Below are positions 31,570 to 49,291 of a stretch of DNA of 64,000 nucleotides, piece by piece. Position 1 is the stretch's first letter, and the number at the start of each line of letters is the position of its first letter. The position numbers and the translations under genes were made by a program. This DNA is from Clostridiales bacterium (GTDB taxonomy: Bacteria > Bacillota > Clostridia > Saccharofermentanales > Saccharofermentanaceae): assembly GCA_017513085.1 (NCBI GenBank), contig JAFWDK010000001.1, positions 1 to 64,000 of the forward strand, read 5' to 3'. The notes below the pieces were generated by a model. That model was not told where the DNA came from. It was given only the letters and a program-made list of their open reading frames with translations, and did no database searches.

Positions 31570-34142
31570 TGAACAAGCGTGAAATAATCCAGAAGAACGA
31601 GCTCAATCCAGCTCCCAAGCATAGTAAGAAAGAGAATAAATGGTTATTGCCTGTAGCAGCAACCCTGACTCTTCTTTCTCATATCGGACTGATAGTCATG
31701 ATCCTTTGGTCATACCGCTATTTTGGCTTAAGCAAATCTACCTTTATTGGCATTATTTGCGCCTTGGTATGTCTTGTGATCATTATGGATATTATCTTCC
31801 TGGTGGCATTCCGGTATCGAGATAAACTGCTGAAAACCATTAATATCATCATGGCAGTCCTGCTGCTTGCCGGGACAGGCACCTCTGCGTATTATCTCAA
31901 CACCATCAATAAAGTCGTTGACGATGTCACGGAAAACAGCGGAACTGAGCAGTATGAGACTATTACAGTTGTTTTCGCAACACACGAAGATAACAAGGAT
32001 ATCAAGGAAACAGCTGACCTGAAAGGAAAGAAAGTCGGTGTTATCAAGTCTTTCTCTCCTGATAGAATCACAGCTTCCACTTTAGGAAAAGACGAGCTTT
32101 CCAGACAGGGAGTAGAACCGGTTTATGTTGAATACCAGAGCACGAACGATCTTTTCCTGGCTTTGGCGGGTAAGGAAGTTGATGCCGCGATCTTCCAGCA
32201 GGGCTATCGTACCCAGTTCAATAATGAAGACGGATATGAAGAATATGTCGAGAAGATCGTTGATATCGGTTCATACGAAGAAAAAGTTCAGGTCGCTGAT
32301 AACAAATCCGCGACTCTTGACCTTTCGTCCAACCCCTTTAACATCCTGCTGATCGGTCTTGCGCCGGAAGCCGGCGGAGGCGGATTACCGGATGCCATTA
32401 TCCTCGCATCGGTCAACCCGCAGACGATGACCGTATCGATGGTTTCGATCGCCCGTGACTCTTACATCGATATCCCCTGTTACGGCGGTGCAAAGAATAA
32501 GATCAATGACACCGGTGCTGACCGTGCGTGTCTGATGGAATCGGTTTCCAACCTGCTGGATAAAGATATTGACCTTTATATGGAAGTCAACTTCAAAGGT
32601 CTTGTAGATATCATTGATGCATTAGGCGGCATCTGGATCGACTCACCGGTAGAATTCGTCGGTCAGAACTCTTCGACTGAACGCGGTAACTACACAAACA
32701 AGATCTATGCCGGCGGACAGTGGGTCGACGGTGAACACGCTCTGACTTTCGCCAGAGAAAGAAAGAGAATGCCGAATGGCGACTTCGACCGTCAGAAGCA
32801 TCAAAAAGAAGTCATTATCGAGATCGTCAAGGGTCTGCTGAACCTGAGAGATGTCAATAAGGCCGTCAATATCATGAAGATTGCCGGAGATAATTTCTCG
32901 ACAAACCTCTCTCTGAAGCAGATGACGGATGTCTTCAATTATCTTCTTAACGCAACCAACTATAACGGCATACCGAGTTTCGATATGATCGATATCCAGC
33001 AGTTGAGAATTACCGGTTATCCATCCTGGTTCTATAGTTATTCAATGCGTCTGCCGTTATGGATCTATCGCTTGTATAATGGCTCTATCGCAGAAACGCA
33101 GGAACGTATCGAAGATGTTCTCGGAGAATACAATGTTGATACGATCCAGCAGCCGTACTTATTCAAGTTCTTCGCTGACAGAAACTATGTCAGAGCACCG
33201 TTATACCACGAAACTTTCAACGAGGCTCAGATCCACGAAGAGATGCCTGCTTTCGTTACGAAGCTTACAGATATGACATATGCTGACGCAATGGCATGGG
33301 CTTCTGCTAACGGAGTTACTCTTAACGTAACATTCATTGCGCCGGATAGTCCGGAATACGTAGCTTCCGATGACGGATGGGTCATGTCCCAGAGCGTCAG
33401 ATATGGTGCTTTAGTATCTGAAAACCCTGTAATCTCGATCACGGTCATGGGTTCTCCGATGTCCGAAGAAGACAAGGTTCCGAATTTTGTGGGCGGAAGA
33501 GTATCGGATGCTCAGTCCTGGTGTGATGCTAACGGAATCGCTCTGAATATCACTTGGTCGGAAACCAATGATTACACATTATCCAATACGGTCATCTCTC
33601 AGAGTGTTAATGCCGGTTCGGATAAGCGTAACGTTACCTCGATGGATATTCAGGCATACCAAGGCCCAGTCGCTGTTCAGGACCTTATTGCCGGAAAGAG
33701 CTACAACAATGCCATCGCGACTCTTGAAAGCTCTGGCTACAAAGTTGTATACACTCCGGATCCGGAAGGAGGAGTACAGGGCTATGACTGGTCGCCGGTC
33801 GCTGTCAATCCGGGTGATCAGATCACGCTTACAATAAAGAGCTGCAGAGAAGGGTATACGTTAAACAATGGCGTATGTGAACTGACTTCAGTACCGACTA
33901 CTTCGCCTGAAACAACTGAATCACCTTCGCCAGAACCCGAACCTACAAAGACTTGCCCGGATGGAAGTGTAATCCCTGAAAGCCAGGAATGCAAAATAGA
34001 ACCTCCATCAACTGAATCACCTTCGCCAGAACAACCGAGTACCCCGCCTGAAGGTGGTGGCGACTCCGGTGGTGGCGACTCCGGTGGTGGCGACTCCGGT
34101 GGTGGCGACTCCGGTGGTGGCGACTCCGGCGGCGGAGCATAA
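31566..34142 (+). CDS. LytR-CpsA-Psr (LCP) protein with solute-binding-like and PASTA domains
   Basis: An 858-residue protein likely to transfer glycopolymers from lipid carrier to peptidoglycan. Order: basic N-terminus, three membrane helices (about residues 27-49, 57-81, 92-110), a domain of about 115 residues like family 3 solute-binding proteins (TADLKGKKVGVIKSF, KEVDAAIFQQGY), the LCP domain from about residue 256 with the pyrophosphate-binding arginines and acidic residues in SIARDSYIDIP, FARERKRM and DFDRQKH, then about three PASTA-like repeats (AQSWCDANGIALNI type), then a Pro/Glu/Ser/Thr tail and GGGDS repeats. A terminator follows. Typical LCP proteins lack the solute-binding-like domain and the repeats. 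Confidence 0.88.
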   Translation: MMNKREIIQKNELNPAPKHSKKENKWLLPVAATLTLLSHIGLIVMILWSYRYFGLSKSTFIGIICALVCLVIIMDIIFLVAFRYRDKLLKTINIIMAVLLLAGTGTSAYYLNTINKVVDDVTENSGTEQYETITVVFATHEDNKDIKETADLKGKKVGVIKSFSPDRITASTLGKDELSRQGVEPVYVEYQSTNDLFLALAGKEVDAAIFQQGYRTQFNNEDGYEEYVEKIVDIGSYEEKVQVADNKSATLDLSSNPFNILLIGLAPEAGGGGLPDAIILASVNPQTMTVSMVSIARDSYIDIPCYGGAKNKINDTGADRACLMESVSNLLDKDIDLYMEVNFKGLVDIIDALGGIWIDSPVEFVGQNSSTERGNYTNKIYAGGQWVDGEHALTFARERKRMPNGDFDRQKHQKEVIIEIVKGLLNLRDVNKAVNIMKIAGDNFSTNLSLKQMTDVFNYLLNATNYNGIPSFDMIDIQQLRITGYPSWFYSYSMRLPLWIYRLYNGSIAETQERIEDVLGEYNVDTIQQPYLFKFFADRNYVRAPLYHETFNEAQIHEEMPAFVTKLTDMTYADAMAWASANGVTLNVTFIAPDSPEYVASDDGWVMSQSVRYGALVSENPVISITVMGSPMSEEDKVPNFVGGRVSDAQSWCDANGIALNITWSETNDYTLSNTVISQSVNAGSDKRNVTSMDIQAYQGPVAVQDLIAGKSYNNAIATLESSGYKVVYTPDPEGGVQGYDWSPVAVNPGDQITLTIKSCREGYTLNNGVCELTSVPTTSPETTESPSPEPEPTKTCPDGSVIPESQECKIEPPSTESPSPEQPSTPPEGGGDSGGGDSGGGDSGGGDSGGGDSGGGA
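34053..34127 (+). repeat. Five tandem 15-bp repeats at the LCP C-terminus
   Basis: Five identical GGTGGTGGCGACTCC units encode GGGDS each, followed by a final GGGA and stop. Unit length is a multiple of three, so copy number changes would lengthen or shorten the tail without a frameshift. Confidence 0.95.
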
Positions 34143-34318: not shown

Positions 34319-35161
34319 ATGGTACCACAATTTGGCTTGGCAGAGATTCATAAAGTCGAGCTTATGATTTTGAAAGACATAGATAATTTGTGTCAAAAAC
34401 ACAAATTGAACTATTGCTTATATTGCGGCACTTTATTGGGCAGTATCCGTCACAAAGGCTTTATTCCGTGGGACGATGACGCAGATATCATGATGCCTTT
34501 ACGGGATTGTCGACGATTTTTAAGCATTGCTAAAACAGAATTAAAGGGCAGGTATTTTATTTCCGAAATTCGCAGCGATGCCAACGCTATGGTCCCCTGG
34601 ACGCAAATTCGCCGCGAAGGAACGGAATATTACCCGGAAGAGCATAGAAACATAGAATACCATAAAGGCATTTCTTTGGATATTTATCCGCTGATCGGTG
34701 CGTATGAAGGCATCTTCGGTAAGCTGCAGGTCTCTGCGATCGACGTTCAAAGGGCTTTGACAAGCCGGAATATGCGAAGAGCCGAAAACTATAAGACTAT
34801 TCATCGTTTTGTTGCGGCACGAAAGATAATGGACTGTATGCCGAGATGGTTTTTATTAATGGCTAACAGTTTGATTGAAGCTTTATTCTGGCCGGATCCG
34901 GACAAACATGTATCCTGTGGTACGGTCGATGCTGCCAAGTTCTCAGGGAAATATCTGGTCAGGGACTGGAAGGAAAAAACAGATGGCGAATTTGAAGGCA
35001 GCAAATTCCCGATACCAAAAGAGTATGATCTGTTTTTAAGAACGATGTATGGAGATTACTGGAAACTGCCTCCTGAAGAAAAAAGGGTAAGCCACCACGC
35101 TGATAGCGTGGTCGTAACGATCAGTGATACGATTGCGGAAGAAATAGGGATAAAACCATGA
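34319..35161 (+). CDS. LicD family phosphotransferase
   Basis: A 280-residue protein with the LicD signature CLYCGTLLGSIRHKGFIPWDDD, then ADIMM (about residues 38-64), a nucleotidyltransferase-like fold with an acidic metal site. LicD proteins move phospho-groups such as phosphocholine, or other phospho-alcohols, from CDP donors to surface glycans. The open frame extends upstream to 34151 but that part lies in a terminator, so the start is 34319. It overlaps the cytidylyltransferase fusion gene by four bases, which could make its CDP donor. Which group it transfers is unknown. Confidence 0.85.
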   Translation: MVPQFGLAEIHKVELMILKDIDNLCQKHKLNYCLYCGTLLGSIRHKGFIPWDDDADIMMPLRDCRRFLSIAKTELKGRYFISEIRSDANAMVPWTQIRREGTEYYPEEHRNIEYHKGISLDIYPLIGAYEGIFGKLQVSAIDVQRALTSRNMRRAENYKTIHRFVAARKIMDCMPRWFLLMANSLIEALFWPDPDKHVSCGTVDAAKFSGKYLVRDWKEKTDGEFEGSKFPIPKEYDLFLRTMYGDYWKLPPEEKRVSHHADSVVVTISDTIAEEIGIKP

Positions 35162-36510
35162 AAACAGTAATAACATACGGTGTTTTTGATCTTTATCATG
35201 AGGGACATGAAAACCTCTTAAGACGCGCGAAAGCATTGGGAGATCGTCTGATCGTCGGAGTGACGTCGAACGAATTCACAAAACAGCGAGGAAAGCTTCT
35301 GCTTGCAGACAGTTTGGATATTCGTATGGCGAATGTTCGAAACTGTCCGTATGTTGATGAGGTTATTCTGGAAGATCATTACGGGCAGAAGGCTGAGGAT
35401 ATACAAAAGTATCGTGCCGATGTGTTTGTAGTTGGAGATGACTGGAAAGGTAAATTCGACTATCTCCGCAAATGGTGCGAAGTGGTCTATCTTCCCCGCA
35501 CCCCCGGTATTTCTTCATCTTCTCTGCGTACTGCTCCCTATCCGAAAATCTCTTTCGGAGTCGTAGGAAGCGGCCGGATCGTCAGACGTTTTCTTGAGGA
35601 AATAAAGACTGTGCATGGTGGTGTGCATGCGGAGCAAATCTATAATCCGCATCGTGAAAGCGCGGAGAGAGCCGCGGCTGAACATCCGGATCTGTCTGTC
35701 TGTGACAGCTATCCGAATATGCTGAAACTGTGTGACGCTGTATATATTGCCTCTCCTCACGAGACGCATTATGCGTACGCAAAAGAAGCGCTGCAGGAAG
35801 GGAAACACGTTCTCTGTGAAAAACCTCTGGCCTTGAAAGAAGCTGAAGCCAAAGAACTTTTTGCGATCGCGGAAGAAAAATCGCTGGTTCTGATGGAGGC
35901 AGTCAAGACTGCCTATTGTCCGGGCTTTACCAGATTGCTCTCGATCATTGAAACCGGCTTTATCGGCGAAGTCAGGGACGTCGAGTGTTCTTTTACAAAG
36001 CTCACCGCTCCGGACGTCCGCGAGCGAACAGACACCGAATACGGCGGCGCCTTTACCGAACTCGCTTCCTATACCTTACTGCCGGTGCTCAAACTTCTCG
36101 GCTGCAAGGATCTGCAGGTTCGTTTTGATAGTCAGTTTGATGAAAATGGGATCGATCTGTATACAAAAGCATATATTTCAAATGGGAAAGCTTTATCCTG
36201 CGGAAAAACAGGCCTTGGCGTCAAAACCGAAGGGAGTATGATCGTAGCCGGTACAGATGGCTATATCCGCGTAGAAGCACCTTGGTGGAAAACATCCAGA
36301 TTTTCGATCCATCATGAAGACCCGCAGGATATTCAGGACTTCAAAGTTTACTTCGCAGGAGAAGGCCTTCGTTACGAAATAGCCGAGTTTGTTGACCGCA
36401 TTCAGGGCTGGCATACATCGGATTATCATTTAACAAAAGAGGAATCGATCACAATGGCGAGGATCTTTGAACAATATCTGGAATATCGGAAAGGACTGAG
36501 GGAAGAATGA
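35158..36510 (+). CDS. Cytidylyltransferase fused to a Gfo/Idh/MocA oxidoreductase
   Basis: A 450-residue two-domain protein. Residues 1-127 are a TagD/Gct-type cytidylyltransferase with the HxGH site in GVFDLYHEGH (His14, His17) and the late RTPGISSSSLR block. Residues from about 131 form an NAD(P)-binding Gfo/Idh/MocA oxidoreductase with GVVGSGRIVRRFL and the conserved EKPLAL (Lys222). One polypeptide could thus reduce or oxidise a sugar phosphate and couple it to CMP, making a CDP-polyol for the LicD proteins, in the manner that TarJ and TarI do together with unrelated folds. The substrate is unknown. Confidence 0.85.
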   Translation: MKTVITYGVFDLYHEGHENLLRRAKALGDRLIVGVTSNEFTKQRGKLLLADSLDIRMANVRNCPYVDEVILEDHYGQKAEDIQKYRADVFVVGDDWKGKFDYLRKWCEVVYLPRTPGISSSSLRTAPYPKISFGVVGSGRIVRRFLEEIKTVHGGVHAEQIYNPHRESAERAAAEHPDLSVCDSYPNMLKLCDAVYIASPHETHYAYAKEALQEGKHVLCEKPLALKEAEAKELFAIAEEKSLVLMEAVKTAYCPGFTRLLSIIETGFIGEVRDVECSFTKLTAPDVRERTDTEYGGAFTELASYTLLPVLKLLGCKDLQVRFDSQFDENGIDLYTKAYISNGKALSCGKTGLGVKTEGSMIVAGTDGYIRVEAPWWKTSRFSIHHEDPQDIQDFKVYFAGEGLRYEIAEFVDRIQGWHTSDYHLTKEESITMARIFEQYLEYRKGLREE

Positions 36511-37790: not shown

Positions 37791-38605
37791 TCCATTATGA
37801 TCAGGAAACTCTCCGCAGGATCCAGCTCGTTCAGCTCGGGCTTCTTCAGGAAGCGGACCGGATCTGCCGCAAACATGATATTCCCTATGTGATCATTGCC
37901 GGCACGCTTTTAGGAGCGGTCCGCCATAAGGGCTTTATTCCCTGGGATGATGATGCGGATATCGCTTTGCTGCGGGAAGATTACGACCGATTCGCAGAAG
38001 CTTGTGCGGAAGATCTTGACACAGAGAATTTCTATTTTCAGGATCACCGGGTCACGCCCGGTTACCGTTGGGGATACGGAAAGCTGCGTCGGAAAGACAG
38101 CCTTTTTCTCCGCGAGCATCAGGAGCATATGCCTTATGAACAGGGAGTATTTATCGATGTTTTTCCGCTGGACGCTGTCCCGCAGAGCCGCATTGGAAGA
38201 ACGCTCAAAAACTTCGAATGTTTTTTGATCCGCAAAACACTGTATGCTCCGGTAGGACGGGTTGCGGACAGAAGTGTTTTTAAAAGGAGACTGTATGACC
38301 TGCTGTCAAAGATCCCGGAACAAAGAGTCTTCGGACATCTGGAAAAAATGATCAAAAAAGCCGGAAATACCCAGTCTGAATGGGTCCGCATTTTAATGTT
38401 CCCGACACCGAATAAGGAATACGGATATCTGCGCCGCTGGTATCTTGAAAGAGAAAAGATCCTTTTTGAAGGGGTCCCGTTTTACGGCATCAAAGATACA
38501 GACGGATATCTGACATTTAAATTCGGTGATTATATGACTCTTCCGCCGGAAAGTGGAAGAAAGACACATCCAGTTTCACAGCTGAAACTGCCGGAGAAGA
38601 TATGA
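37787..38605 (+). CDS. LicD family phosphotransferase (second)
   Basis: A 272-residue LicD protein with VIIAGTLLGAVRHKGFIPWD then DDADIALLREDYDRF (about residues 33-67). It is related to but clearly different from the LicD protein at 34,319; both match over the central motif and the MYGDYWKLPP / KFGDYMTLPP end segment. It probably adds the same or another phospho-group to a different sugar of the polymer. Overlaps of four bases at both ends keep it in the operon. Confidence 0.85.
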   Translation: MIHYDQETLRRIQLVQLGLLQEADRICRKHDIPYVIIAGTLLGAVRHKGFIPWDDDADIALLREDYDRFAEACAEDLDTENFYFQDHRVTPGYRWGYGKLRRKDSLFLREHQEHMPYEQGVFIDVFPLDAVPQSRIGRTLKNFECFLIRKTLYAPVGRVADRSVFKRRLYDLLSKIPEQRVFGHLEKMIKKAGNTQSEWVRILMFPTPNKEYGYLRRWYLEREKILFEGVPFYGIKDTDGYLTFKFGDYMTLPPESGRKTHPVSQLKLPEKI

Positions 38606-39384
38606 ATTCCGAGGAAATCAAAGAATTGCTGAAACAACAGGAGTACAGCATTTTTGGCACGGGATACGTATCCCGTATGCTTTTGCGCGCTTTAAAAAAA
38701 CAGAAACTGTCAGATAATCTGCAGACTTTCTGCCGCAGCGAAGTCACTCCCGGTGAAACGTTTCAGGGCTACCCGGTGATCTCGGCGGAAAAAGCGCTGC
38801 AAAGCGGAAACCCGATCCTGCTCGGTATCCACGACGGAGGAAAGGGCTCTGTTGCCGGCGCTGACAAAATGATCCGCGCTTATCCTTATCTGAAAGACTG
38901 GCTGTTTGGCGATCCGCTGCAGAGACAGGTCATTTTGAAAACAGATGAAATACGGCAAAGACAGCCGCAGGACCAATATTGGATCGCGGCTCGTTATGCC
39001 GGAATTGAAGGGATCGCTGAAAACGATCCGGAAAAGAAAGAGATCTATCTGCGCGCAATGTCGATGCACTGTTCCCGGGAAACGGCGGAACAACGTTTAA
39101 GATCACTGGATGCATTGATGAAAGAGGCGGAGAAAAACGGTCTAGATCCCGAGAGACCTGTTGTTCTTGATACGGACTTCCGGGTCATTGACGGTCTGCA
39201 TCGCCTGGCTGTTGCTGCCTGGCTGAATATTGATGAGATCCATGCGGATATCTATCCGTCAGACGACGTCTATTTGGATCTTTTCGGAGAAAAGAACCGG
39301 CTCAGTGAAGCGGCCTTGCGAAGAAACGGATTTAAAGAAACGGAGATCGAGTATCTCAGGGAGTGCAGGAGGAAATGCGGATGA
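38602..39384 (+). CDS. Rossmann-like module plus ParB-like domain, function unknown
   Basis: A 260-residue protein. Its first about 105 residues (YSIFGTGYVSRMLLRALKK onward) look like a nucleotide-binding Rossmann module that recurs in several neighbours. The C-terminal part contains VVLDTDFRVIDGLHRLAVAA (about residues 193-212), which resembles the ParB/sulfiredoxin nuclease-like fold, in which such domains can have kinase or other phosphate chemistry. It lies in the glycan operon, so a chromosome partition role is improbable. No function can be assigned. Confidence 0.55.
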   Translation: MNSEEIKELLKQQEYSIFGTGYVSRMLLRALKKQKLSDNLQTFCRSEVTPGETFQGYPVISAEKALQSGNPILLGIHDGGKGSVAGADKMIRAYPYLKDWLFGDPLQRQVILKTDEIRQRQPQDQYWIAARYAGIEGIAENDPEKKEIYLRAMSMHCSRETAEQRLRSLDALMKEAEKNGLDPERPVVLDTDFRVIDGLHRLAVAAWLNIDEIHADIYPSDDVYLDLFGEKNRLSEAALRRNGFKETEIEYLRECRRKCG

Positions 39385-40958
39385 TAAAAGAATTGGTTAC
39401 GTTGATCCTGCCGGTCTATAATGTCGCGGATTATATCGATCAGTGCATGGAGACGGTGACTGCCCAGACCTATCCCGATCTTGAGATCCTTTTGATCAAC
39501 GACGGTTCAACAGATGACTCTTTGAGAGTATTGCGGAAATGGGAAGATGCGGATAAGCGTGTCCGTGTTATTGATAAAAAGAACGAAGGCGTTGCAGCAA
39601 CGCGCAATCTGGGTGTTCACGAGGCGAAAGGCACCGTCATTGGGTTTGTCGATCCGGATGACTGGCTGGATCTTTCGTATGTTGAAAAACTGCTTTCAAA
39701 AATGCAGGAAGAGGACGCGGAATATGTTGAATGCGATCTCTGGCGCGTTGACGGAAGGACCGGCAAGATGATCTACCGTTCCTGCGGAAGTCGGATGGGC
39801 GTTCCCTATACGCACGAGGAACATATGAAATACGGTCCGACCGCAACATATAAAGCCCTGAGCCGTAAGGCTCTTTGGGATCGCTATGATCTGCATATGC
39901 CGTCCTGTTCCTTCGAGTCTCCGGCGATCTATTCGCTGATCCTGACACTAAGCAAAAAGAACTCCTATGTACCGGAGGCATTGTATTATTACCGCCGATT
40001 CCGCCCGGCTTCTTTGGTTGAGACAGGGTATTCCGCAGATCCTTTGCTTGGTGTGGAAGCGATGAATTTTCTGGTAAGCGAATTCAAACGCTGCGGGATC
40101 TACGACCAGTATAAAAGTGTACTTTCTTCCGTTGTTACTTACAGACTGAATGATATTCTTGCGATGCAATATCATCGTAAACCGTCTAATGACTTTCAAA
40201 AACTCGTAAAAGCTTACGAGGACCTGCGATCCCGGCTTTTTCCACAAAACCATCAGGAACGTTACGTGGTATTCGGGGGATATAATCTAAACCGCATCCT
40301 CCTCCATATGGACATGCTGCAGAATCCTGTCCTGCGTTTCAATTTCTGCAGTCTGATATCTCTGTCAAAGAAACGTGAGAGGACTTACCCGATTCATCAC
40401 AAAAACCGTTATCGCGAGATCATGCTTGAGAAGGAAGAAAAACAGTCCTATTTCAGGACAATTGAGGAAATACGGCCGGCTTATCTTTTTATGGATCTTT
40501 TGGAAGAACGATTTGACATACTGGAAAGCGACTCATACCGAACTTTGAGTGATGCCAGAGAAGGAGCGGATGAACAGATCGAAGGAAGAAGAATCCCGCG
40601 AAACAGCAAAGAATGTACAGAACTGTGGAAAAGAAGTTTTGATCATTTTTTCGGTTCAAATATTGAGATCCTGCCTCAACTGAAGGTTATTGTTTTGGAA
40701 AACTATTTGAGCGAAAAAGTCGGGGATCCGCACGGGCAGAAAGACTTTCCTGAAATCGGAAAGATAAGGGAAACAAATGCCGTTTTGAAGGATTACTACG
40801 CATTTATCAAAGAGAATTACCCACAGATCCAAGTTGTTCATACATCTGACCTGTCGCTGTACTATACTGATACGCACTTTGAATACGGAGCTGTGCCTTC
40901 TCATCTAAACGAGATCGTGAATCAGCAGATCGCAGAAAGAGCGGGAGAGTATCTATGA
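39381..40958 (+). CDS. GT2 glycosyltransferase with a C-terminal SGNH/DUF6270-like domain
   Basis: A 525-residue protein. The first about 230 residues are a GT2 enzyme: LVTLILPVYNVADYIDQ, INDGSTDDSL and FVDPDDWLD (Asp91, Asp93, Asp94). The rest starts with a module VVFGGYNLNRILLHMD and goes on with PAYLFMDLLEERFDILES and DLSLYYTDTHFEYG, resembling DUF6270 (an SGNH-like fold seen in polysaccharide loci). The start at 39381 is fixed by AGGAGG at 39367-39372; upstream in-frame ATGs are too close to that site. Fusion suggests that a sugar is added and then modified or trimmed. Confidence 0.75.
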   Translation: MIKELVTLILPVYNVADYIDQCMETVTAQTYPDLEILLINDGSTDDSLRVLRKWEDADKRVRVIDKKNEGVAATRNLGVHEAKGTVIGFVDPDDWLDLSYVEKLLSKMQEEDAEYVECDLWRVDGRTGKMIYRSCGSRMGVPYTHEEHMKYGPTATYKALSRKALWDRYDLHMPSCSFESPAIYSLILTLSKKNSYVPEALYYYRRFRPASLVETGYSADPLLGVEAMNFLVSEFKRCGIYDQYKSVLSSVVTYRLNDILAMQYHRKPSNDFQKLVKAYEDLRSRLFPQNHQERYVVFGGYNLNRILLHMDMLQNPVLRFNFCSLISLSKKRERTYPIHHKNRYREIMLEKEEKQSYFRTIEEIRPAYLFMDLLEERFDILESDSYRTLSDAREGADEQIEGRRIPRNSKECTELWKRSFDHFFGSNIEILPQLKVIVLENYLSEKVGDPHGQKDFPEIGKIRETNAVLKDYYAFIKENYPQIQVVHTSDLSLYYTDTHFEYGAVPSHLNEIVNQQIAERAGEYL

Positions 40959-41860
40959 TCAAACAAAAAACATACAGAGTATTCATCTGGGGCGTATCCG
41001 CAATCTATAATCGGCATTTGCTGAATCTTAAGTACAGAGAAGATCACGGTGAAATCGAAGTCTTAGGAGTCTATGACCGCGATATCTGCTGCGGAAGCAA
41101 ATTGGATGGCTATCGGCTAGTCAGAAAAGAACAGATCGTGGAGACTCCGCACGATTTTGTAATCGTGATGGCAAAGTGGACAGAAAAAGTGATCACCGAA
41201 GAGTATCTCGAACTTGGCGGTAAGCGGGAAAAGATCCTTCCTTACCGGATCCTGGATGTTCCGGGACTGACATTAGAACAGTATGAAACGATAAGGAACG
41301 CGCATTTTTCCATTATTTCAAGTGACTGTTTTGGCGGTATGCTGTCCCACACATTGAATCTGCCGTTTTTGTCTCCTTTTGTGAATCTGTGGATCGAATC
41401 GGGCGATTATCTCAAAATCGCCGGCGACTTGAAACACTATATGAGTATTGCTCCCCGATTTGTCCGCTTCCAGGAAGCGATGGGACCGTTTGACGAAAAA
41501 CAATATCCGGTTCTGAAGGTGGGTGATGTCACTCTCTACTGCAATCATGACCGCGATCCGGAGGAGGCGATCGCAAAATGGGAAAGACGGAAACAGCGCA
41601 TTAATTACGGAGCGCTGCTGCTGACCTCTCTGGTGAACGACAGAGATGCTGAAAAGAAATTGAAGCTATACAAAGGTTATACGCGTAAAATGATCTTTAC
41701 CGGTTATCCTGATCCGGAACCGGATTCCATATACTTACCTTCCGAAGGAAGGCAGCCTCTTGATCAGCTGCACCGTTCAGTAACCGAACCGGGAAGCATG
41801 TTCGATCTCTATTCGCTCTTTTTTGGAAAAGTGAAATACCGCCGCAGTATGGAGGGCTAG
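40955..41860 (+). CDS. DUF1919 protein with N-terminal Rossmann-like module
   Basis: A 301-residue protein. Residues 1-105 (VFIWGVSAIYNRHLLNLKY, VLGVYDRDICCGSKLDGY) form the short nucleotide-binding-like module also found in neighbouring genes. The rest is DUF1919, recognised by SIISSDCFGGMLSHTLNLPF followed by LSPFVNLWIE and the HYMSIAPRF region. DUF1919 proteins occur in capsule loci and are suspected glycan-modifying enzymes, perhaps phosphotransferases; the activity is not established. Confidence 0.72.
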   Translation: MIKQKTYRVFIWGVSAIYNRHLLNLKYREDHGEIEVLGVYDRDICCGSKLDGYRLVRKEQIVETPHDFVIVMAKWTEKVITEEYLELGGKREKILPYRILDVPGLTLEQYETIRNAHFSIISSDCFGGMLSHTLNLPFLSPFVNLWIESGDYLKIAGDLKHYMSIAPRFVRFQEAMGPFDEKQYPVLKVGDVTLYCNHDRDPEEAIAKWERRKQRINYGALLLTSLVNDRDAEKKLKLYKGYTRKMIFTGYPDPEPDSIYLPSEGRQPLDQLHRSVTEPGSMFDLYSLFFGKVKYRRSMEG

Positions 41861-41865
41861 AAGAA

Positions 41866-43212
41866 ATGTTAACCACACGAACGATTGCAATATGGGGAAT
41901 GGGCGTATTCGGTCAGAAAATGCTAATAGCGCTTAAGGAATACTATTCCGATGTTTATTCTGTTGCTGCTTTGTTTGACAGATCTCCTAAAAAAAGCGGA
42001 ACAGAATACGAAGGTCTGTTGATCAAGGAACCTTCAGAAATAAAGAAAGAATATGCTGCGGGTTTGTTTGAAGCAGTAATGGTCTGCATAAAATTCGGAG
42101 ACGCAAGAACCGAAGCCGTCCGGAGTTTGCAGGAATGGGGCATTCCGTTGTTTTATCCCGGGACTGAAGACAGTTTTACGGATCATACGCAGTTTGAACA
42201 GACAGAAAGTCCGTCTTATCAGATAGATCAAAAAGGGTACGATGTATGGGAATTCACGAATATATTCGGAATCAAAGCACTGCATTTTGATTCGGAATCT
42301 ATGTTTCTGTTCAACGGAGAAGGAAAAGTGTTGCTGGAACAATGGGATGCGTATCCGGAAGATGAGCAATACGCATTACGCTTATATTTCCCGATCCGGT
42401 TCGATCAGCCGCCGGCTGAAAAAGTCATGTTAAGAGGTGAATGGTGTATTCTGACAAAACTGTTCGCAGGAAACTACTGGCACTTCGTGAATGAAGGAAT
42501 GGATTGTGTAGCATTGCTTGAAGGAGCCGGTTACACAGGAAAATATCTGGTTCCGGATTGCGACTTCAATAAAGAGCTTCTTGTAATAATGGGGATCGAT
42601 GAGAACCGTATCTGCTCAGCTGCTGGCCTGGACAACGAAACTGTTTATCAATTCGAGAAACTTGTTTTTTGCCACCAAAGGAAAAGAAACTATCGGGAAA
42701 GCGCAGATGTTCTGTCCCGCGTTGGAGACAGACTGAAAAAACACCTGAAAACTGATTCGAGCCTGCCAAAAAGGATCCACATTAAACGGATCGGTTCGCG
42801 AAAACTTCTGAACGGCGAAGAGATCAGCAGTCAATATGGATTTGTGACGATCATCCCCGAAGAATACAGTGTAAAGGAACAAATGGAGTTCTTCTACAAT
42901 GCAGATATCGTTTTAAGCGAACATGGCGCGAATTCAACCAATTACGTCTGCATGAGACCGGGTTCGGTATTTGTAGAAACGTTCAACAATTCCTGGAAGT
43001 ATCCGTTTAATCTTTACGGAACTTATGCATGCGGAATTCATTATCTGCCCGTAAGTGATCTGAAACCGGCAGATAATGATCCGCAGGGGAAAACAAAAGA
43101 TTACAAAATCGACGAGACAATGTTGCGGACATCGATTGAAAACGCAATCTTGATTAGCAAAGGAGACAAGCTTCTATATGACAAAAGTATCCGTAATCAT
43201 TCCGGTATATAA
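41866..43212 (+). CDS. GT61-type (DUF563) glycosyltransferase with N-terminal Rossmann-like module
   Basis: A 448-residue protein. Residues 1-105 (TIAIWGMGVFGQKMLIALKE, ALFDRSPKKSGTEYEG) are another copy of the recurrent module. The catalytic part has NYWHFVNEGMDC, RIHIKRIGSRKL, FFYNADIVLSEHGANSTN and GSVFVETFNNSW, the typical line of GT61 enzymes. These usually add xylose or similar sugars; a UDP-xylose-type synthase gene lies in the same operon at 49,770, which may be relevant. It shares 35 bases with the next gene. Confidence 0.78.
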   Translation: MLTTRTIAIWGMGVFGQKMLIALKEYYSDVYSVAALFDRSPKKSGTEYEGLLIKEPSEIKKEYAAGLFEAVMVCIKFGDARTEAVRSLQEWGIPLFYPGTEDSFTDHTQFEQTESPSYQIDQKGYDVWEFTNIFGIKALHFDSESMFLFNGEGKVLLEQWDAYPEDEQYALRLYFPIRFDQPPAEKVMLRGEWCILTKLFAGNYWHFVNEGMDCVALLEGAGYTGKYLVPDCDFNKELLVIMGIDENRICSAAGLDNETVYQFEKLVFCHQRKRNYRESADVLSRVGDRLKKHLKTDSSLPKRIHIKRIGSRKLLNGEEISSQYGFVTIIPEEYSVKEQMEFFYNADIVLSEHGANSTNYVCMRPGSVFVETFNNSWKYPFNLYGTYACGIHYLPVSDLKPADNDPQGKTKDYKIDETMLRTSIENAILISKGDKLLYDKSIRNHSGI

Positions 43213-44419
43213 CACAGAAAAATACCTTCCGGCCTGCCTGGAAAGTGTGCTGTCACAGACTCTTCCGGACCTTGAAGTCATCTGCATTGATGATGCTTCA
43301 CCGGATCGCTGCGGGCAGATCCTCGATGAATACGCCGGGAAAGACCAAAGGGTAAGAGTCTTTCATCTTGAAGAAAACCACAGGCAGGGATACGGGCGCA
43401 ATCTCGGCATTCAAAACGCAACCGGTGATTATCTTTATTTTCTTGATTCAGATGATATGATCGAGGCCGATGCTTTGAAAGAACTCAGTGAGATTTCGGA
43501 TCAAAAAAACCTGGATGCCGTGTTTTTTGATGCGCAGAATCACTTCGAATCCGAAGATCTCCGAAGTGTATATACACCTGCTTTTGAGGATCGGAAAGGA
43601 ACATATCCGGATCATCCGGTCGAGGGGAAAGAACTCTTTGATCTGTTTATGGAACAAAAGGAATGGACCTGTTATCCACAGCGTATTTTTTGGAGACGCA
43701 GCTTCATCCTTGAGGAGGGCACACTCAATCCTGTAGGATCCGAACACGAAGATGAGTATTTCGCATTCGCCGGAATCCTAACGGCAAAACGGGCTATGTA
43801 TATTCCGAAGCAGTATTTCATTCTGCGGATCCGCCCAAACTCCGTAATGACCAGCAGGATCCTTCCGAAGAATTTTCATGGTTATTTAATGAATTATTAC
43901 TGGATGAGCCGTTTTGTTGCGGAAAGAGATCTGCACACAAAGGCCGGAGATCTGAATATCATCCGCATGTATGAACGCTGCTGTACTTTCTATGACAGAC
44001 TATCCGGTGAATTTGACCTTCGCGAAATCTGCAGCCACAGGGAATTGGATAAGATCCTGTTTGAATGTTTCGAAATACATCTCAAAGCAAAAAAACAAAT
44101 GAGTATGATCGATCCCGGCGTAATGGAAAGAATCCGTTCCTGTGCGCATCTGTATATTTACGGAGCCGGCATTGTTGCGGACAAATTTGCCAAAGAGATC
44201 CTGATGCAGAAGGATATTCCTTTAGATGGTTTCCTCGTCACCGAAACAAAAGGAAATGCTCAGATCTTATACGGGAGAAGAATACAGGCTTTTGAAAGCA
44301 CAAAACTGCCGGAAGATTCCCTGGTCGTGGTTGCCGTCGGGAAAACTCTGCGAAGCGAAGTGTGTGCTATTCTGGAAAAGAGCGGCGTTAACTGGATCTA
44401 TTACCGTGACCAGGAGTAA
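43178..44419 (+). CDS. GT2 glycosyltransferase with C-terminal Rossmann-like module
   Basis: A 413-residue protein with a GT2 domain (VSVIIPVYNTEKYLPACLE, IDDASPDRCG, YFLDSDDMIEAD) and a C-terminal module (LYIYGAGIVADKFAKEILM from about residue 326, then VVVAVGKTLRSEV) like those at the N-terminus of neighbouring proteins. Here the module follows the catalytic domain instead of preceding it. The start at 43178 lies in the end of the GT61 gene, after AAAGGAGAC. A cytoplasmic glycan assembly role is expected; sugar unknown. Confidence 0.82.
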   Translation: MTKVSVIIPVYNTEKYLPACLESVLSQTLPDLEVICIDDASPDRCGQILDEYAGKDQRVRVFHLEENHRQGYGRNLGIQNATGDYLYFLDSDDMIEADALKELSEISDQKNLDAVFFDAQNHFESEDLRSVYTPAFEDRKGTYPDHPVEGKELFDLFMEQKEWTCYPQRIFWRRSFILEEGTLNPVGSEHEDEYFAFAGILTAKRAMYIPKQYFILRIRPNSVMTSRILPKNFHGYLMNYYWMSRFVAERDLHTKAGDLNIIRMYERCCTFYDRLSGEFDLREICSHRELDKILFECFEIHLKAKKQMSMIDPGVMERIRSCAHLYIYGAGIVADKFAKEILMQKDIPLDGFLVTETKGNAQILYGRRIQAFESTKLPEDSLVVVAVGKTLRSEVCAILEKSGVNWIYYRDQE

Positions 44420-44439
44420 AACACAGGTTTTTTGATTCT

Positions 44440-46944
44440 ATGACAGAACTGGAATATGTCCTGAAAAACTTTGATAAGCACTTTTCTCCTTTTTGCGGAA
44501 AGAAGATCCTTTTGCATGGATCAAGGGAATATGCAGAGAACATTTTGTCTGCATATGATGAAAAATACCATTTCCTCGGTATTATGACTTCAGATCCGGT
44601 ACACGAAGACCTTTTCTGCGGGAAAAGGATTTTCCACGAGTCTGATCTGGCGGAACTGCAGCCAGAGATCGTCATTTTTACAGAAAGAGTAAAATATGAA
44701 GATCTTGCGTATCAGCAGATCATTCTATGTCCGGAGTGCAGAGATACGCTTTTGTACAATATGTACGGTGTGGATGAAAGAAGAGTCCGGGAAGAGTATG
44801 AGTGTATCACCGAACTGTCAAGGTTGGTCCGCGCAAAGCTTTTGAAGGAGAATGACGTCATTGGTTTCGAAGTAATGGATGTCTTCTTTTCTCAGGTGGA
44901 CGGAGAAATCGACAAGCCGCAGCGCAGAGCAATGCGAGTCTATGAAGAAGCCAGAAAAAAAGGAAAAAAGGTGTTTTTCAGTCTGCGTCGTTCATTTGAT
45001 CAGAAAAAGCAGATCAAAGCGCTGGAGGACTGTGGGATCCGCGAGATCCCCGGACAAATCGAAGTCATCAGCCGGGAGGGTGAAGACCTGTCTTTCCGCA
45101 GGATCTGCGATATGTTTCCCGGCAAAAAGACCGTGTATTTTGGTCAGGGCTTCGTAAATGAGTATCTATTGCCGAAGTGCTACGGGATCACCCCTGTTCG
45201 GGTGTATACCTATGCGATCCCGTTCGATGTTCCGAATTCTCTGGATACGATATTGCGGAACGCGTACAAGGAGACGAGCCGCCAAAAAGATACAACCCGG
45301 ATCCTTTATCAGGAAATCGATCTGTACGATGTAATATCCTTTGATGTTTTTGACACTCTTCTTCAAAGAACAGCCCTGCTTCCGGAAGACGTTTTCAGAC
45401 TGCTGGCCAAACGTTTCTGGACGGATCCAAGGGAACAGAACAGGTTTGTTGAATGCCGGATAGACGCACAATACAGCGGGATATATCCGACTCTGGAGGA
45501 GATCTATAACAGCGTTGCCGCATCTTTGGAACTCAGTGAAAGCGAAAAAGAGCTTCTTCTGGAGCAGGAGCTCGACATCGAAAGAAGCGTGATCTGTTGC
45601 CGCAGACATATGACAGATATAGTTGATTACGCGATCAAAGCAGGAAAAACGGTCGTCGCAACTTCCGACATGTATCTCGGCAGCACGATCCTGAATGATC
45701 TGCTGAAAGAAAACGGATATCCCGATTTTGAGAGGATCTTTGTCTCTTGCGAGTATCGGAAGGCAAAAACGGACGGGCTGTTTGATGAACTCGGAAATGC
45801 GTATGCCGGAAAAACGATACTTCATATCGGCGATAACCCAAAGGCAGACGGCATCGCGGCAGAAAAAACAGGCTTTGGATATCGTCCGATCCGATCGGCG
45901 CTGCAAAAGGCATGTGACTGCGGATATGAAGATGTGATCCGTGAAGAACATGATCTGGCTGAACGCTGTATGATCGGCCTTTGCGTGGCGAATGCTTTCA
46001 GCGACCCGTTTGAACCGGATATGATCGAAGATCTGAATGATGGGGAAAGACTGACACGGTTTGCGTCCATGAGCGTCTTTCCGATCCTGATCGGATATAT
46101 TTGTTACTTGAACAAGATGTCCGCCGGTTATGACAGAGTACTGTTTTCGTCGAGAGACGGACTTATCCTGTCTGAACTCTACAATTACATCCGATCAGCC
46201 AAACATCCCACGCTGCCGGAAAGTCTGTACTTTTACTCCAGCCGCCATGCAGCATTCCAGACATGCATGGATAATCCGCAAACGATCGGCAACACATATC
46301 TCGGTAAGGAGCAGACGCTCCCGAGCTTTGTCAGAAACGTTTACGGAGTTGAGCCTCTGCCGTGTGAGCAGAACATCGGGAAAGAAGAGTATGTAAGACT
46401 TCATTGGGATAAGATCTGTGAAAAGGCGGAAACCGCCCGGGCTAATTACCGAAAATACCTCCGGAACCATGGCCTTTCCGGTGACAAACGGTATCTGTTT
46501 ACAGATTTTGTTGCGATCGGAACGACCCAGCATTATCTGCAGAAGTTTTCCGGAATAAAACTTCATGGATGTTATATCGCCTGTCCGCTTTACGGAGAAC
46601 CGTATGAAGCTGTTGATTATTATATCGATTTTGGTGATGACTTCTTTATTACGAACTTCATGGAGATGGAATATATCATGACTTCCATGGAGGCTTCGCT
46701 TGATTGTTTCGATGAAAAGGGGCAGCCTGTTTTTGCGAAAGAAGTCCGCACAGAAGAAGATCTGCAGCGGATCAGGACCGTACACGAAAATATCCTGAAA
46801 CTGGGAAAAGTGTTTTGCGATGTTATCTATGAAAAAGACACAGAGATCGATGCTGAATTGACAGTAAAAATGTATGCAGCTGAAGGATATCATGGAATAG
46901 TGAAAGAAAGGGGATACGATGACTGGGTCAAACAAGTCTTATAG
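44440..46944 (+). CDS. Tandem-HAD protein (COG5610-like), first HAD copy degenerate
   Basis: An 834-residue protein. Residues 1-110 begin with a Rossmann-like module (KILLHGSREYAENILSAY). Residues about 138-250 look like a decayed HAD domain: IGFEVMDVFF has Glu144 where the nucleophile Asp should be, and YFGQGF replaces the GD motif. Residues about 296-490 form an intact HAD domain: ISFDVFDTLLQR (Asp302), VVATSDMYLG, RKAKTDG (Lys443) and LHIGDNPKADG (Asp465). The last about 300 residues (VLFSSRDGLILSELYNYI, YFYSSRHAAFQ) occur in HAD proteins of polysaccharide loci. It probably acts on a phosphorylated glycan intermediate; its product is unknown. Confidence 0.8.
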   Translation: MTELEYVLKNFDKHFSPFCGKKILLHGSREYAENILSAYDEKYHFLGIMTSDPVHEDLFCGKRIFHESDLAELQPEIVIFTERVKYEDLAYQQIILCPECRDTLLYNMYGVDERRVREEYECITELSRLVRAKLLKENDVIGFEVMDVFFSQVDGEIDKPQRRAMRVYEEARKKGKKVFFSLRRSFDQKKQIKALEDCGIREIPGQIEVISREGEDLSFRRICDMFPGKKTVYFGQGFVNEYLLPKCYGITPVRVYTYAIPFDVPNSLDTILRNAYKETSRQKDTTRILYQEIDLYDVISFDVFDTLLQRTALLPEDVFRLLAKRFWTDPREQNRFVECRIDAQYSGIYPTLEEIYNSVAASLELSESEKELLLEQELDIERSVICCRRHMTDIVDYAIKAGKTVVATSDMYLGSTILNDLLKENGYPDFERIFVSCEYRKAKTDGLFDELGNAYAGKTILHIGDNPKADGIAAEKTGFGYRPIRSALQKACDCGYEDVIREEHDLAERCMIGLCVANAFSDPFEPDMIEDLNDGERLTRFASMSVFPILIGYICYLNKMSAGYDRVLFSSRDGLILSELYNYIRSAKHPTLPESLYFYSSRHAAFQTCMDNPQTIGNTYLGKEQTLPSFVRNVYGVEPLPCEQNIGKEEYVRLHWDKICEKAETARANYRKYLRNHGLSGDKRYLFTDFVAIGTTQHYLQKFSGIKLHGCYIACPLYGEPYEAVDYYIDFGDDFFITNFMEMEYIMTSMEASLDCFDEKGQPVFAKEVRTEEDLQRIRTVHENILKLGKVFCDVIYEKDTEIDAELTVKMYAAEGYHGIVKERGYDDWVKQVL

Positions 46945-49291
46945 ACGGATCCTGGAACTCGTCAGTGAGTATGGGAACATCGATTATGATGAACTGATCG
47001 CGGATGAAGACCGTGATGTTTTGCTGCAGCTGAGTTCTCTCCGTCATAGTCTGCTGAGCTGGTATCCCTTCCCGAAAGAGGCAGAGGCTCTGGAGATCAA
47101 TGCCGGATGCGGAGCTTTAAGCGCTTTGCTGCTGGACCGGTTTGACCGGGTCGATCTGTTCGAGGAACACGATGCAGCGAGAGAAATACTGAAACAACGT
47201 TTTCCGGATATGACCGGACGTGTTCTGGAAACACTTGAGGAAGTTGACCGCAAGTATGATTTTGTATTTGCGCTCGATCTGCCGGCTTTCTATCAGGGGA
47301 AACTCGCACAGGTTTTGGAAGACGCCCATGATCTGCTGAAAGAAGGGGGAATACTTTGTGTCGGGTTCCGGAACCGGAACGCCTCGAAATACAGCTGCGG
47401 GTCTGTTGATGATATTGTCAGGGAACCCTTTAAAACCGACAGCCTTCTTTCGCTTTCGGAATTCAATAATGCAGCCGGTTCTATGTTTGAAAATATCGAG
47501 GTGTACTGTCCGTTTCCGGATGCACTTTACACGCAGGCTGTTTACCGGAGCGGCTGCATGCCGACATCCTCGTTTGCTGACAGAGTTCGCGCCTTTGATC
47601 CCTATAACAGTCCGCTGATAAAAGACGAGAATGAGGAATTTTACTATGCAATAAAGGATGGAACGCTTCTTGAAAAGAGTGATTTCTATTTGGTTTTTTT
47701 GAGCAAAAGACCGCTTTCCTGTCCGATCGAACGAGTTATATTATCTCCCGACAGAGGAGAACATTCCTTTATGACGATTTTCGAAAAGGACAGAGTTTAC
47801 AAAAAAGCGATCAACGCCAAAGGCAGTTCCTATCTTGAGGAGAGCGTGAGAAACGCTGATAAACTTCGTGAACGCGGGATCGACGTCGTTCCGCAGTCTT
47901 TTGAAGATAAGAAACTGATCATGCCCTATGTCCATCAAAAAGCATCGCTGGATGAAATAGCGGATGCGGCGGCGGCAGGAGATGACACGCGCATATTGCG
48001 TGTATTCGATCAGATCTATAAAGATGTGTGCCGTTCATCAGAAACCGCCGGGGAGCCGGATCCGGAAGTATGGGGAACAGAAGATGATTCCAGTCCGGTC
48101 CTGAAAGAGGCAATGATCGACATGATCCCTTACAATGCATTCCTGACAGAAAACGGGCTTTGTTATTACGATCAGGAATTTGTCTGGGAAAATACACCTG
48201 CAAATTATGTCATGTTCAGGGCGGTGCGCTATACTTCCATTCATTTAGGTCCTCTCTTTGATCCCTGGCGGGACCTGCTCCTCGCGCGTTACGGAATCAG
48301 CGAGACACTGTATGAGATCTATCTGAAAAAAGAAAACGCATTCGTTGACAGAAACCGGCGAAGAGATCTCTATCATCAGTTTTATGACTGGACATATATT
48401 TCGCCTGAACGAATAAAGAACAACCGTCAAATGCTGATGCATTCCGATGAGGACGAAGAACTGCAAAAGATCCACGCGATCCAGCTGACGCTCTTGAAAA
48501 AATTCGACGCGTTCTGCAAAGAAAACGATCTGAAATACTTTGCGTTGCACGGTACTTTACTTGGGACGATACGTCATCAGGGGTTTATCCCCTGGGATGA
48601 CGATATCGACTTGGGCATGACGCGGGAGGACTACGACAAGCTGGTGGAACTATATGTAAACCGGCCGGGGATCCCATATCTTCAATCAATGGGCAGAGAA
48701 GGCAGGATCTTTCACGGAGGATATGCGAAATACCGGGACGAGAATTCGGTCGCAGTCGAGGAGCGGAACCGTTATATCTACGGCCATAAAGGGGTGTCGA
48801 TCGACATCATGCCGTTAGACCGCTGCCCCGAAGATCCTGCTGAACGGAAAAAGCTGCAAAAGAAGATCACGGAGATCCAGCGCTGTATTTACGCGAGATG
48901 CTATTCCAAACCGGCCGGATTATTCGATGATCTGCCGGCGAATAAAATGCTTAAATACTATCTGTTTGGCAGCCATATTCCTTTGCGGTTCCAATATCCG
49001 GTCCTGAATCATCTGTTCCGAAGTGTTAAGGATTCGTCGTTGCGGACGATCCTGGCATGTTACTACGGCGAAGTTGAAAACCGGAATCTGTTCCGGGAGA
49101 AGGACCTGAATGATCTGGTTCTTATGCCCTTTGAGGATACGATGATTCCGGTTCCGAGAAACTATCACCAGTGGCTTCTGCAACGCTATGGAGAAAACTA
49201 TCTGTATCCGCCAAAGATAAAGAACAGAAAGCACTCGAACCTGTTTATTAAACTCGATGATTCCTATAAACTAAAGAAAGGAGACGAGTGA
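46919..49291 (+). CDS. Methyltransferase-kinase-LicD trifunctional fusion
   Basis: A 790-residue protein. Residues about 50-215 are a SAM methyltransferase (LEINAGCGALSAL, then YDFVFALD and LLKEGGILCVGFR). Residues about 270-440 look like a kinase fold: VYKKAINA with a lysine, then LIMPYV as a hinge, DMIPYNAFL (Asp401, Asn406; the DxxxxN catalytic loop) and YYDQEF (Asp418). Residues about 515-790 are LicD, with HGTLLGTIRHQGFIPWDDDI. The first two domains have the order of WbdD, which caps O-antigen with phosphate and methyl groups to end the chain. The kinase call rests on motifs only. AAAGGGG precedes the ATG, which overlaps the HAD gene by 26 bases. Confidence 0.78.
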   Translation: MTGSNKSYRRILELVSEYGNIDYDELIADEDRDVLLQLSSLRHSLLSWYPFPKEAEALEINAGCGALSALLLDRFDRVDLFEEHDAAREILKQRFPDMTGRVLETLEEVDRKYDFVFALDLPAFYQGKLAQVLEDAHDLLKEGGILCVGFRNRNASKYSCGSVDDIVREPFKTDSLLSLSEFNNAAGSMFENIEVYCPFPDALYTQAVYRSGCMPTSSFADRVRAFDPYNSPLIKDENEEFYYAIKDGTLLEKSDFYLVFLSKRPLSCPIERVILSPDRGEHSFMTIFEKDRVYKKAINAKGSSYLEESVRNADKLRERGIDVVPQSFEDKKLIMPYVHQKASLDEIADAAAAGDDTRILRVFDQIYKDVCRSSETAGEPDPEVWGTEDDSSPVLKEAMIDMIPYNAFLTENGLCYYDQEFVWENTPANYVMFRAVRYTSIHLGPLFDPWRDLLLARYGISETLYEIYLKKENAFVDRNRRRDLYHQFYDWTYISPERIKNNRQMLMHSDEDEELQKIHAIQLTLLKKFDAFCKENDLKYFALHGTLLGTIRHQGFIPWDDDIDLGMTREDYDKLVELYVNRPGIPYLQSMGREGRIFHGGYAKYRDENSVAVEERNRYIYGHKGVSIDIMPLDRCPEDPAERKKLQKKITEIQRCIYARCYSKPAGLFDDLPANKMLKYYLFGSHIPLRFQYPVLNHLFRSVKDSSLRTILACYYGEVENRNLFREKDLNDLVLMPFEDTMIPVPRNYHQWLLQRYGENYLYPPKIKNRKHSNLFIKLDDSYKLKKGDE

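Follow-up and report, generated by a model that had tools for sequence, protein, structure and literature searches.

Five of six neighbouring proteins in a Clostridiales glycan locus appear to share one Rossmann-like accessory module

The first 64,000 nucleotides of contig JAFWDK010000001.1 of a Clostridiales bacterium (Saccharofermentanaceae; GenBank assembly GCA_017513085.1), referred to here as the window, contain six consecutive open reading frames (ORFs) on the + strand, which we name by their start positions (38602, 39363, 40955, 41866, 43178 and 44440) and which were confirmed at the coordinates claimed for them. An earlier note on this DNA had proposed that all six proteins share a module of about 100 residues with a glycine-rich start, joined to dissimilar partners at either end of the protein, and that the module has a common ligand or docking role. 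Profile comparisons point to common descent for five of the segments, one of them degenerate, and separate off the sixth, in 39363. The list of partners keeps the ParB-like, DUF1919, GT61, GT2 (43178) and HAD domains and loses the DUF6270 protein 39363, which carries no module, and the placement at either end was borne out, with four copies N-terminal and one C-terminal.

The kinship is visible only by profiles, since aligned identity among the five window modules is just 10–18%. All-against-all pairwise local alignment of the six segments (15 pairs, with shuffles), the comparison that the earlier note had suggested, gave nothing decisive (best pairs P1-P3, 2/300; P1-P4, 3/300; P3-P4, 6/300), and relatives were therefore collected for profiles, which join five of the six. 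A six-row profile of sequences from outside the window, made of five members found with PF22674 and L012:1773, first met via the 40955 query, ranked 41866 (8.9e-7), 40955 (3.3e-5) and 43178 (0.0088) as the top three of 218 window frames, with noise beginning at 0.11 and both 38602 (0.29) and 44440 (2.7) inside it. A 100-row outside profile was also used, which takes one of its rows from the genome of the window and includes two short fragments. Its rows contain no window sequence but were gathered with A1, a 28-row module profile that includes window rows, so that the six-row test is the cleaner one. On the same 218 frames the 100-row profile returned 41866 (3.5e-14), 43178 (4.9e-12), 40955 (9.4e-9) and 38602 (9.8e-8), then glutamate dehydrogenase, the generic Rossmann control (5.5e-6), then 44440 (2.2e-5), then noise at 0.13 or above, and the 39363 protein was absent from its matches. 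The control is thus outscored by four copies, and 44440 by itself scores below it. Comparison by hhalign against the window-free profile gave probabilities of 95.9 for 41866, 91.5 for 43178, 88.9 for 40955 and 86.4 for 38602 (range for 38602, 86–91), of 58.1 for glutamate dehydrogenase, of 25.1 for 44440 alone and 69 for its first 127 residues, and of 0.1–0.2 for the 39363 segment; the best of 100 shuffles each was 1.9 for 38602 and 9.2 for 44440, and among 24 other window proteins all except glutamate dehydrogenase (23 proteins) stayed at 6 or below. An A1 search of the whole genome at E <=0.01 listed neither 38602 nor 44440, and the membership of both rests partly on homologues. The features of the six proteins are as follows, where outside HMM denotes the 100-row profile as a hidden Markov model.

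38611..38862, + strand: Rossmann-like module, N-terminal, of the 260-residue protein 38602-39384, with a GTGYVS loop (outside-only HMM 9.8e-8; hhalign)
38944..39270, + strand: partner domain of the 38602 protein, which we take to be ParB/Srx-like, with no Pfam match; DGLHRLAVA motif (blastp to L095:11769-12593)
40272..40310, + strand: FGGYNLNR segment of the 39363 protein, the start of DUF6270 and not a module (Pfam DUF6270; hhalign; outside HMM)
40955..41257, + strand: Rossmann-like module, N-terminal (Pfam C2185-like_N), of the 40955 protein (PF22674 4.5e-10; outside HMM 9.4e-9)
41276-41734, + strand: DUF1919, following the 40955 module (Pfam 2.3e-31)
41866..42189, + strand: Rossmann-like module, N-terminal, before GT61, of the 41866 protein (outside HMM 3.5e-14; hhalign 95.9)
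42475-42975, + strand: GT61 domain of the 41866 protein (Pfam)
43190-43582, + strand: GT2 domain of the 43178 protein (Pfam)
44120..44413, + strand: Rossmann-like module, C-terminal, behind GT2, of the 43178 protein (outside HMM 4.9e-12; hhalign 91.5; L024 relative)
44488..44766, + strand: degenerate, predicted Rossmann-like module, N-terminal, of the 834-residue HAD protein 44440, with an HGSREYA loop (homologue profile; AlphaFold2 model)
44839..45213, + strand: extra, degenerate HAD-like domain of the 44440 protein, in the interval between module and catalytic HAD (VIA-align 3slr, 1zjj, 2ia5)
45472..45873, + strand: HAD-IA catalytic domain of the 44440 protein (TIGR01549 2.3e-5, 24.9 bits against a cut-off of 23.3)

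Scans of Pfam and NCBIfam assigned GT2 and DUF6270 to the 39363 protein, C2185-like_N and DUF1919 to 40955, GT61 to 41866 and GT2 to 43178, and NCBIfam assigned HAD-IA to 44440; the 38602 protein had no family match in either collection. Its membership draws on a homologue of the same build in genome G259 (L095:11769-12593, 275 residues), which aligns with residues 4-223 of 260 at 27% identity (4e-28, blastp) and whose N-terminus is itself a module match (G259:C18:692179, 6.7e-11). This homologue, which lies inside a many-module cluster, was the only relative found that joins the module to a ParB-like domain. ParB-like folds include free-serine kinases, so proteins of the 38602 type could be small-molecule kinases. 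An AlphaFold2 model of the 38602 protein alone reached a mean pLDDT of 38 and was left out of the fold search.

For 44440, a profile of its N-terminus with that of its L024 homologue raised the hhalign probability to 88. A homologue of 704 residues in G435 aligns with the N-terminal 110 residues (8.4e-5) and is a module match itself (G435:C13:229037, 1.0e-8), and the assignment draws on the N-terminus of the L097 homologue. The AlphaFold2 model of residues 1-110 alternates strands and helices (block pLDDT 61-93), and in VIA-align WbaP (8t53, Z 7.4) headed the list, with Rex (Z 6.8) also among the best folds; these rows serve as support only, because they are tied within 1 Z and lie below the tool's caution level of 8. 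Foldseek gave no match for this N-terminal model at E 0.001 or better. Taken with the homologues, the model is consistent with a predicted Rossmann fold, a degenerate form of the module. The extra HAD-like domain (residues ~134-258), in which model confidence is moderate, has FEVMD where the catalytic HAD has FDVFD(T); it also occurs in L024:65-2617 and is absent from the G435 and G478 homologues of 44440. One relative of 44440, in a Parasporobacterium metagenome-assembled genome (MAG), adjoins a relative of 43178.

Among the remaining copies, 40955 is the only window module with a PF22674 match (40.1 bits against a curated cut-off of 27), and its relative 2g6t in the Protein Data Bank (PDB) extends along residues 7-253 (1.3e-22). 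The C-terminal module of 43178 is kept in its L024 relative, and its first matches in other genomes of the order are the N-termini of FkbM proteins. The FGGYNLNR segment of 39363 was rejected as a sixth copy by hhalign, by the miss of the outside HMM and by its location at the start of DUF6270, which covers residues 330-514 (Pfam, E 2.9e-17, 63.8 against a cut-off of 27.5 bits). GGYNLNR stands where a Rossellomorea relative has GSCVTRD, in a two-row alignment that is gapped there, and the presumed active-site motif of this DUF6270 may have been lost. Direct searches were sparse in result: across 118 genomes of the order, the window itself was all that single-protein searches with 38602 and 41866 recovered, and 44440 and the C-terminal part of 43178 found three and two partial or weak matches outside it. 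Nothing useful came from plasmids, phages and IMG/VR searched with 38602, or from plasmids when the module of 41866 or the N-terminus of 44440 was the query. In the PDB, phmmer retrieved one chance coiled-coil match and no relatives for the modules of 41866 and 43178, the complete 38602 protein and the first 287 residues of 44440.

Sequence profiles place the module in the PglD_N / NeuD-VioB, C2185-like_N and CoA_binding_3 / Rex group of nucleotide-binding Rossmann domains. Against the PDB, the A1 profile found 3nkl, a UDP-quinovosamine 4-dehydrogenase fragment, as its best match (6.5e-11), followed by Rex (5.1e-9), 2g6t (6.1e-8), VioB (1.1e-4) and WbaP (5.2e-4), with the PglD-relative entries 7L7Y-7L82 at 0.013-0.016; a six-row profile matched VioB more strongly (2.1e-6), and in that match the D-N pairs line up. 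Among 106 module proteins, TIGR03570 (NeuD/PglB/VioB) matched 26 and PglD_N (PF17836) matched six at E <=1e-3; no window module reached the curated cut-off of PF17836.

Each of these families resembles the window system in part. CAC2185-like proteins (PF22674 with DUF1919, as in 2g6t) are like 40955 across both domains, and the window version differs in being one of five fusions in a row. CoA_binding_3 (PF13727, 8t53), found on WbaP-type phosphoglycosyl transferases and PglF-type dehydratases and, as we presume, on 3nkl, is likewise accessory on glycan enzymes, but there it precedes the catalytic part and belongs to membrane enzymes, whereas the module here is found at either end and on many enzymes per locus; PF13727 had no match in the six window proteins, which include no phosphoglycosyl transferase or dehydratase partner. 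Rex, an NADH-sensing repressor, matches by its nucleotide domain, whereas the window modules have glycan enzymes as partners in place of a DNA-binding part. FkbM methyltransferases with an N-terminal Rossmann module (2py6, profile match 0.0041) carry the same module on another catalytic partner. The combination of a Rossmann domain with a redox substrate domain, as in NAD(P)-oxidoreductases, does not occur among the module proteins of the window, where the partners are GT2, GT61, DUF1919, HAD and ParB-like domains. The PglD_N/NeuD-PglB-VioB proteins share profile matches, the glycine loop and the D-N position with the module, but their left-handed beta-helix acetyltransferase is not among its 25 commonest Pfam partners; the module is joined to glycosyltransferases and methyltransferases, to HAD and radical SAM proteins and to others. 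The N-terminal domain of a PglD relative holds UDP via two Asp and one Ser and was described as a platform for UDP (PMC8040287).

The residues expected for nucleotide binding are mostly kept outside the window. Among 100 outside modules, the GxG is kept in 87, the acid after strand 2 in 83 and both in 70; in the alignment of the window copies both occur only in 41866, with the glycines only in 43178 and 38602, the acid only in 40955 and neither in 44440. The first acid, which corresponds to the first of the PglD-type UDP contacts, is thus present in 83/100 outside and 2/5 window modules, and the position after it, where the second Asp of the PglD relative meets uracil, is mostly N or S.

The module is also found well beyond the window. 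Of 398 phylum genomes, five had PF22674 matches at E <=0.001, among them that of the window; the matching parts belong to TylF methyltransferases, a GT4, a radical SAM protein and a protein of 259 residues. A1 reached 44 of 299 at E <=1e-8, with Rex and other relatives included; 28 of these had a single match (half of them in Rex-sized frames) and 16 had several. The 16 multi-match genomes hold 62 matches, 57 of them within 15 kb of another (~2.4 expected at random), and 51 of 55 remain so when the genomes that gave profile rows are excluded. Since glycan genes cluster anyway, we took GT2 enzymes as an internal control, in 10 genomes chosen for module clusters, using 150 of 188 GT2 matches (148 frames) after removing eight Rex-sized module rows by hand. 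Among the matches listed, the module is carried by 22 of the 39 GT2 frames that lie no more than 10 kb from another module gene and by none of the 109 GT2 frames elsewhere (Fisher 5e-16, where frames in one locus are not independent), and by 17/29 versus 0/85 without the three profile-row genomes. For GT2, the module is therefore a trait of the locus and not of the enzyme class.

Partners were tallied on the 106 module proteins left after three of 109 matches (glutamate dehydrogenase and two frames under 100 residues) were dropped; set A6 omits 14 non-module L028 proteins (115 of 129 used). The partners fall into 41 groups without detectable similarity to one another, with 14 modules on 13 groups in a ~24-kb locus of G259, 13 on 11 in G478 and five on five in the window. 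The module stands at the N-terminus of 58 proteins, at the C-terminus of 45 and internally in three, and the 25 commonest Pfam families include GT2 (29), FkbM (14), radical SAM (6), GT4-type Glycos_transf_1 (6), cytidylyltransferase-like (2) and CDP-glycerol transferases (2). Several individual cases are recorded here in their own right. The only further match in the window's genome at E <=0.01, G000:C10:32773-33024 (L105:9591-10811), is on a protein that its tree group marks as an FkbM-like methyltransferase, with close relatives elsewhere in its genus and family. A G174 protein (L106:7778-9223) combines the module with a part that resembles the F420 dehydrogenase beta subunit of the FrhB/FdhB type and has 4Fe-4S sites. 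A flagellin gene (L025:2-721) lies near the edge of the 13-module cluster of G478, which may therefore glycosylate flagellin.

The idea in the earlier note that the module was shuffled among these neighbours found no support in a tree of 106 modules, in which the nearest relative of each of the five window copies belongs to another genome. In some of the tree, identity and neighbour tests, G248 (same genus as G214) was left out. Locus labels require 76 changes on the tree, compared with 83.3 +/- 2.1 in shuffles (0/500) and 81.5 +/- 1.7 when shuffled within partner and position (2/500), and partner labels require 62 compared with 71.1 +/- 1.5 when shuffled within locus (0/500). The nearest neighbour lies in the same locus for 18 of 100 modules (6.4 expected); 12 of these 18 have a neighbour joined to another partner (4.25 expected; 4/1000 shuffles), e.g. 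in adjacent genes of G319. The N-terminal module of a G214 methyltransferase and the C-terminal module of a G319 GT4 are 52% identical over 91 columns, which indicates that the module still moves between partners. Some local copying or co-evolution is likely in loci other than the window, and the overall picture is mostly one of tagged enzymes being brought together in loci, accompanied by some transfer of modules.

How these modules act can be argued from the locus effect, which suggests a shared ligand or partner, and from the relatives, which suggest binding of a nucleotide or NDP-sugar. The reading that we favour, and to which we give about an even chance, is that of an accessory nucleotide- or NDP-sugar-binding module with a regulatory or assembling role, which would place the enzymes of a pathway under a common ligand or partner. 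The five segments are, by profile kinship, copies of one old accessory domain that is fused to many surface-glycan catalytic domains, and the module would bind a pathway nucleotide or nucleotide-sugar via the GxG loop and the acid after strand 2. Ligand binding, and possibly pairing of modules too, would tune or co-localise the enzymes that carry the module, and the steps in making a polymer would thereby answer to the same small molecule or share one assembly. Of the window copies, 40955 and 44440, in which the motif is partly or wholly lost, would retain a structural role alone. A precedent exists in WbaP, whose domain is stabilised by UMP, UDP and UTP and whose enzyme is inhibited by UMP at 4.1 uM; from these two properties nucleotide-sensing regulation, a 'one-size-fits-all' feedback, was proposed for WbaP, though not for the present module (PMC10942596).

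Several observations weigh against this accessory-ligand reading. Only one of the five window copies has both nucleotide-binding marks, which makes one ligand classically bound by all of them doubtful; of the common role proposed in the earlier note, the homologous family, the tie of the GT2 module to the locus and the nucleotide- or NDP-sugar-binding relatives stand, and the single classical ligand is in question. FkbM methyltransferases, radical SAM and HAD proteins are not known to share a nucleotide. Ordinary NAD(P) Rossmann enzymes score with the A1 profile too (a shikimate dehydrogenase fusion at 1.4e-6, for example), so that the nearest ligand could be NAD-like or none, and mean identity between modules on different partners in the same locus (0.1925) is not clearly raised over 0.187 +/- 0.0035 in shuffles (20/300). 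Co-operation within a locus is argued from genomic evidence only, and UDP-Gal destabilised the WbaP domain (PMC10942596).

A docking or scaffold function, in which homotypic module contacts or a common partner hold the enzymes in one assembly and nucleotide binding is ancestral and dispensable, appears to us the less probable account. In its favour, it is the locus and not the enzyme class that decides whether a GT2 carries the module, attachment occurs at either end or in the middle, several copies have lost the motif, and same-locus nearest neighbours on different partners are in excess. It sits less easily with the 70 of 100 outside copies that retain the motif and with a same-locus mean identity that is not clearly raised, and the WbaP relative speaks both ways, being a dimer with most contacts in this domain that nevertheless go through a beta-hairpin (PMC10942596). 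An old passive fusion, kept for folding stability or as a relic (e.g. of an acetyltransferase or NDP-sugar enzyme) and carried along with exchanged glycan islands, seems improbable. Surface-glycan loci are exchanged as blocks, which would favour passive carriage, as would the fixed end in the two largest partner groups (GT2-like, 28/28 C-terminal; FkbM-like, 14/14 N-terminal), since it suggests that many fusions are inherited and not new; yet 14 modules on 13 dissimilar partner groups within one 24-kb locus, the G214/G319 pair at opposite ends of its proteins and a motif conserved in most copies argue against it. That unrelated glycine-rich beginnings are alike by accident, as generic Rossmann starts, is what the earlier note had named as the outcome that would undo its proposal, and it proved true of the 39363 segment. 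The low pairwise identity without clear signal is what chance would give, and glutamate dehydrogenase also scores, above 44440 alone; but four of the five copies outscore that control, and 23 of the 24 other window proteins reach a probability of 6 at most by hhalign, so that a generic or chance origin is already unlikely for these four, and as an account of the whole it is very improbable.

The surroundings of the six genes have a teichoic-acid-type look, with three LicD proteins, two cytidylyltransferase-like proteins, an epimerase, an ABC-2 permease and an ABC ATPase. One protein (35158-36510) fuses a cytidylyltransferase-like domain to a GFO/IDH/MocA oxidoreductase, and from this architecture it is perhaps a single maker of an unusual CDP-linked polyol or sugar. 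In another (46919-49291), one of the three LicD domains lies downstream of a weak methyltransferase-like match, and a LytR-CpsA-Psr protein (31566-34142) has an NMT1-like substrate-binding match alongside three PASTA repeats.

The fold of the module is already known, and its locus-wide spread appears to be new: no description was found in the open-access literature searched, a weak negative, as subscription journals were mostly uncovered. Tentatively, and with less assurance than for the accessory-ligand reading, we suggest that some surface-glycan loci carry a pathway-wide tag, a nucleotide-binding module on many or most of their enzymes that would act as a common allosteric input or docking code. 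If so, feedback of the WbaP type would be a general design, reaching glycosyltransferases, methyltransferases, cytidylyltransferases, HAD and radical SAM proteins. The question addressed is that of pathway specificity and flux matching among the cytoplasmic enzymes of one polymer, to which a module set by the locus would give a direct handle. The module would also account for many 'hypothetical' stretches at the N- or C-terminus of glycan enzymes, and orphan enzymes that carry it could become easier to place in a pathway.

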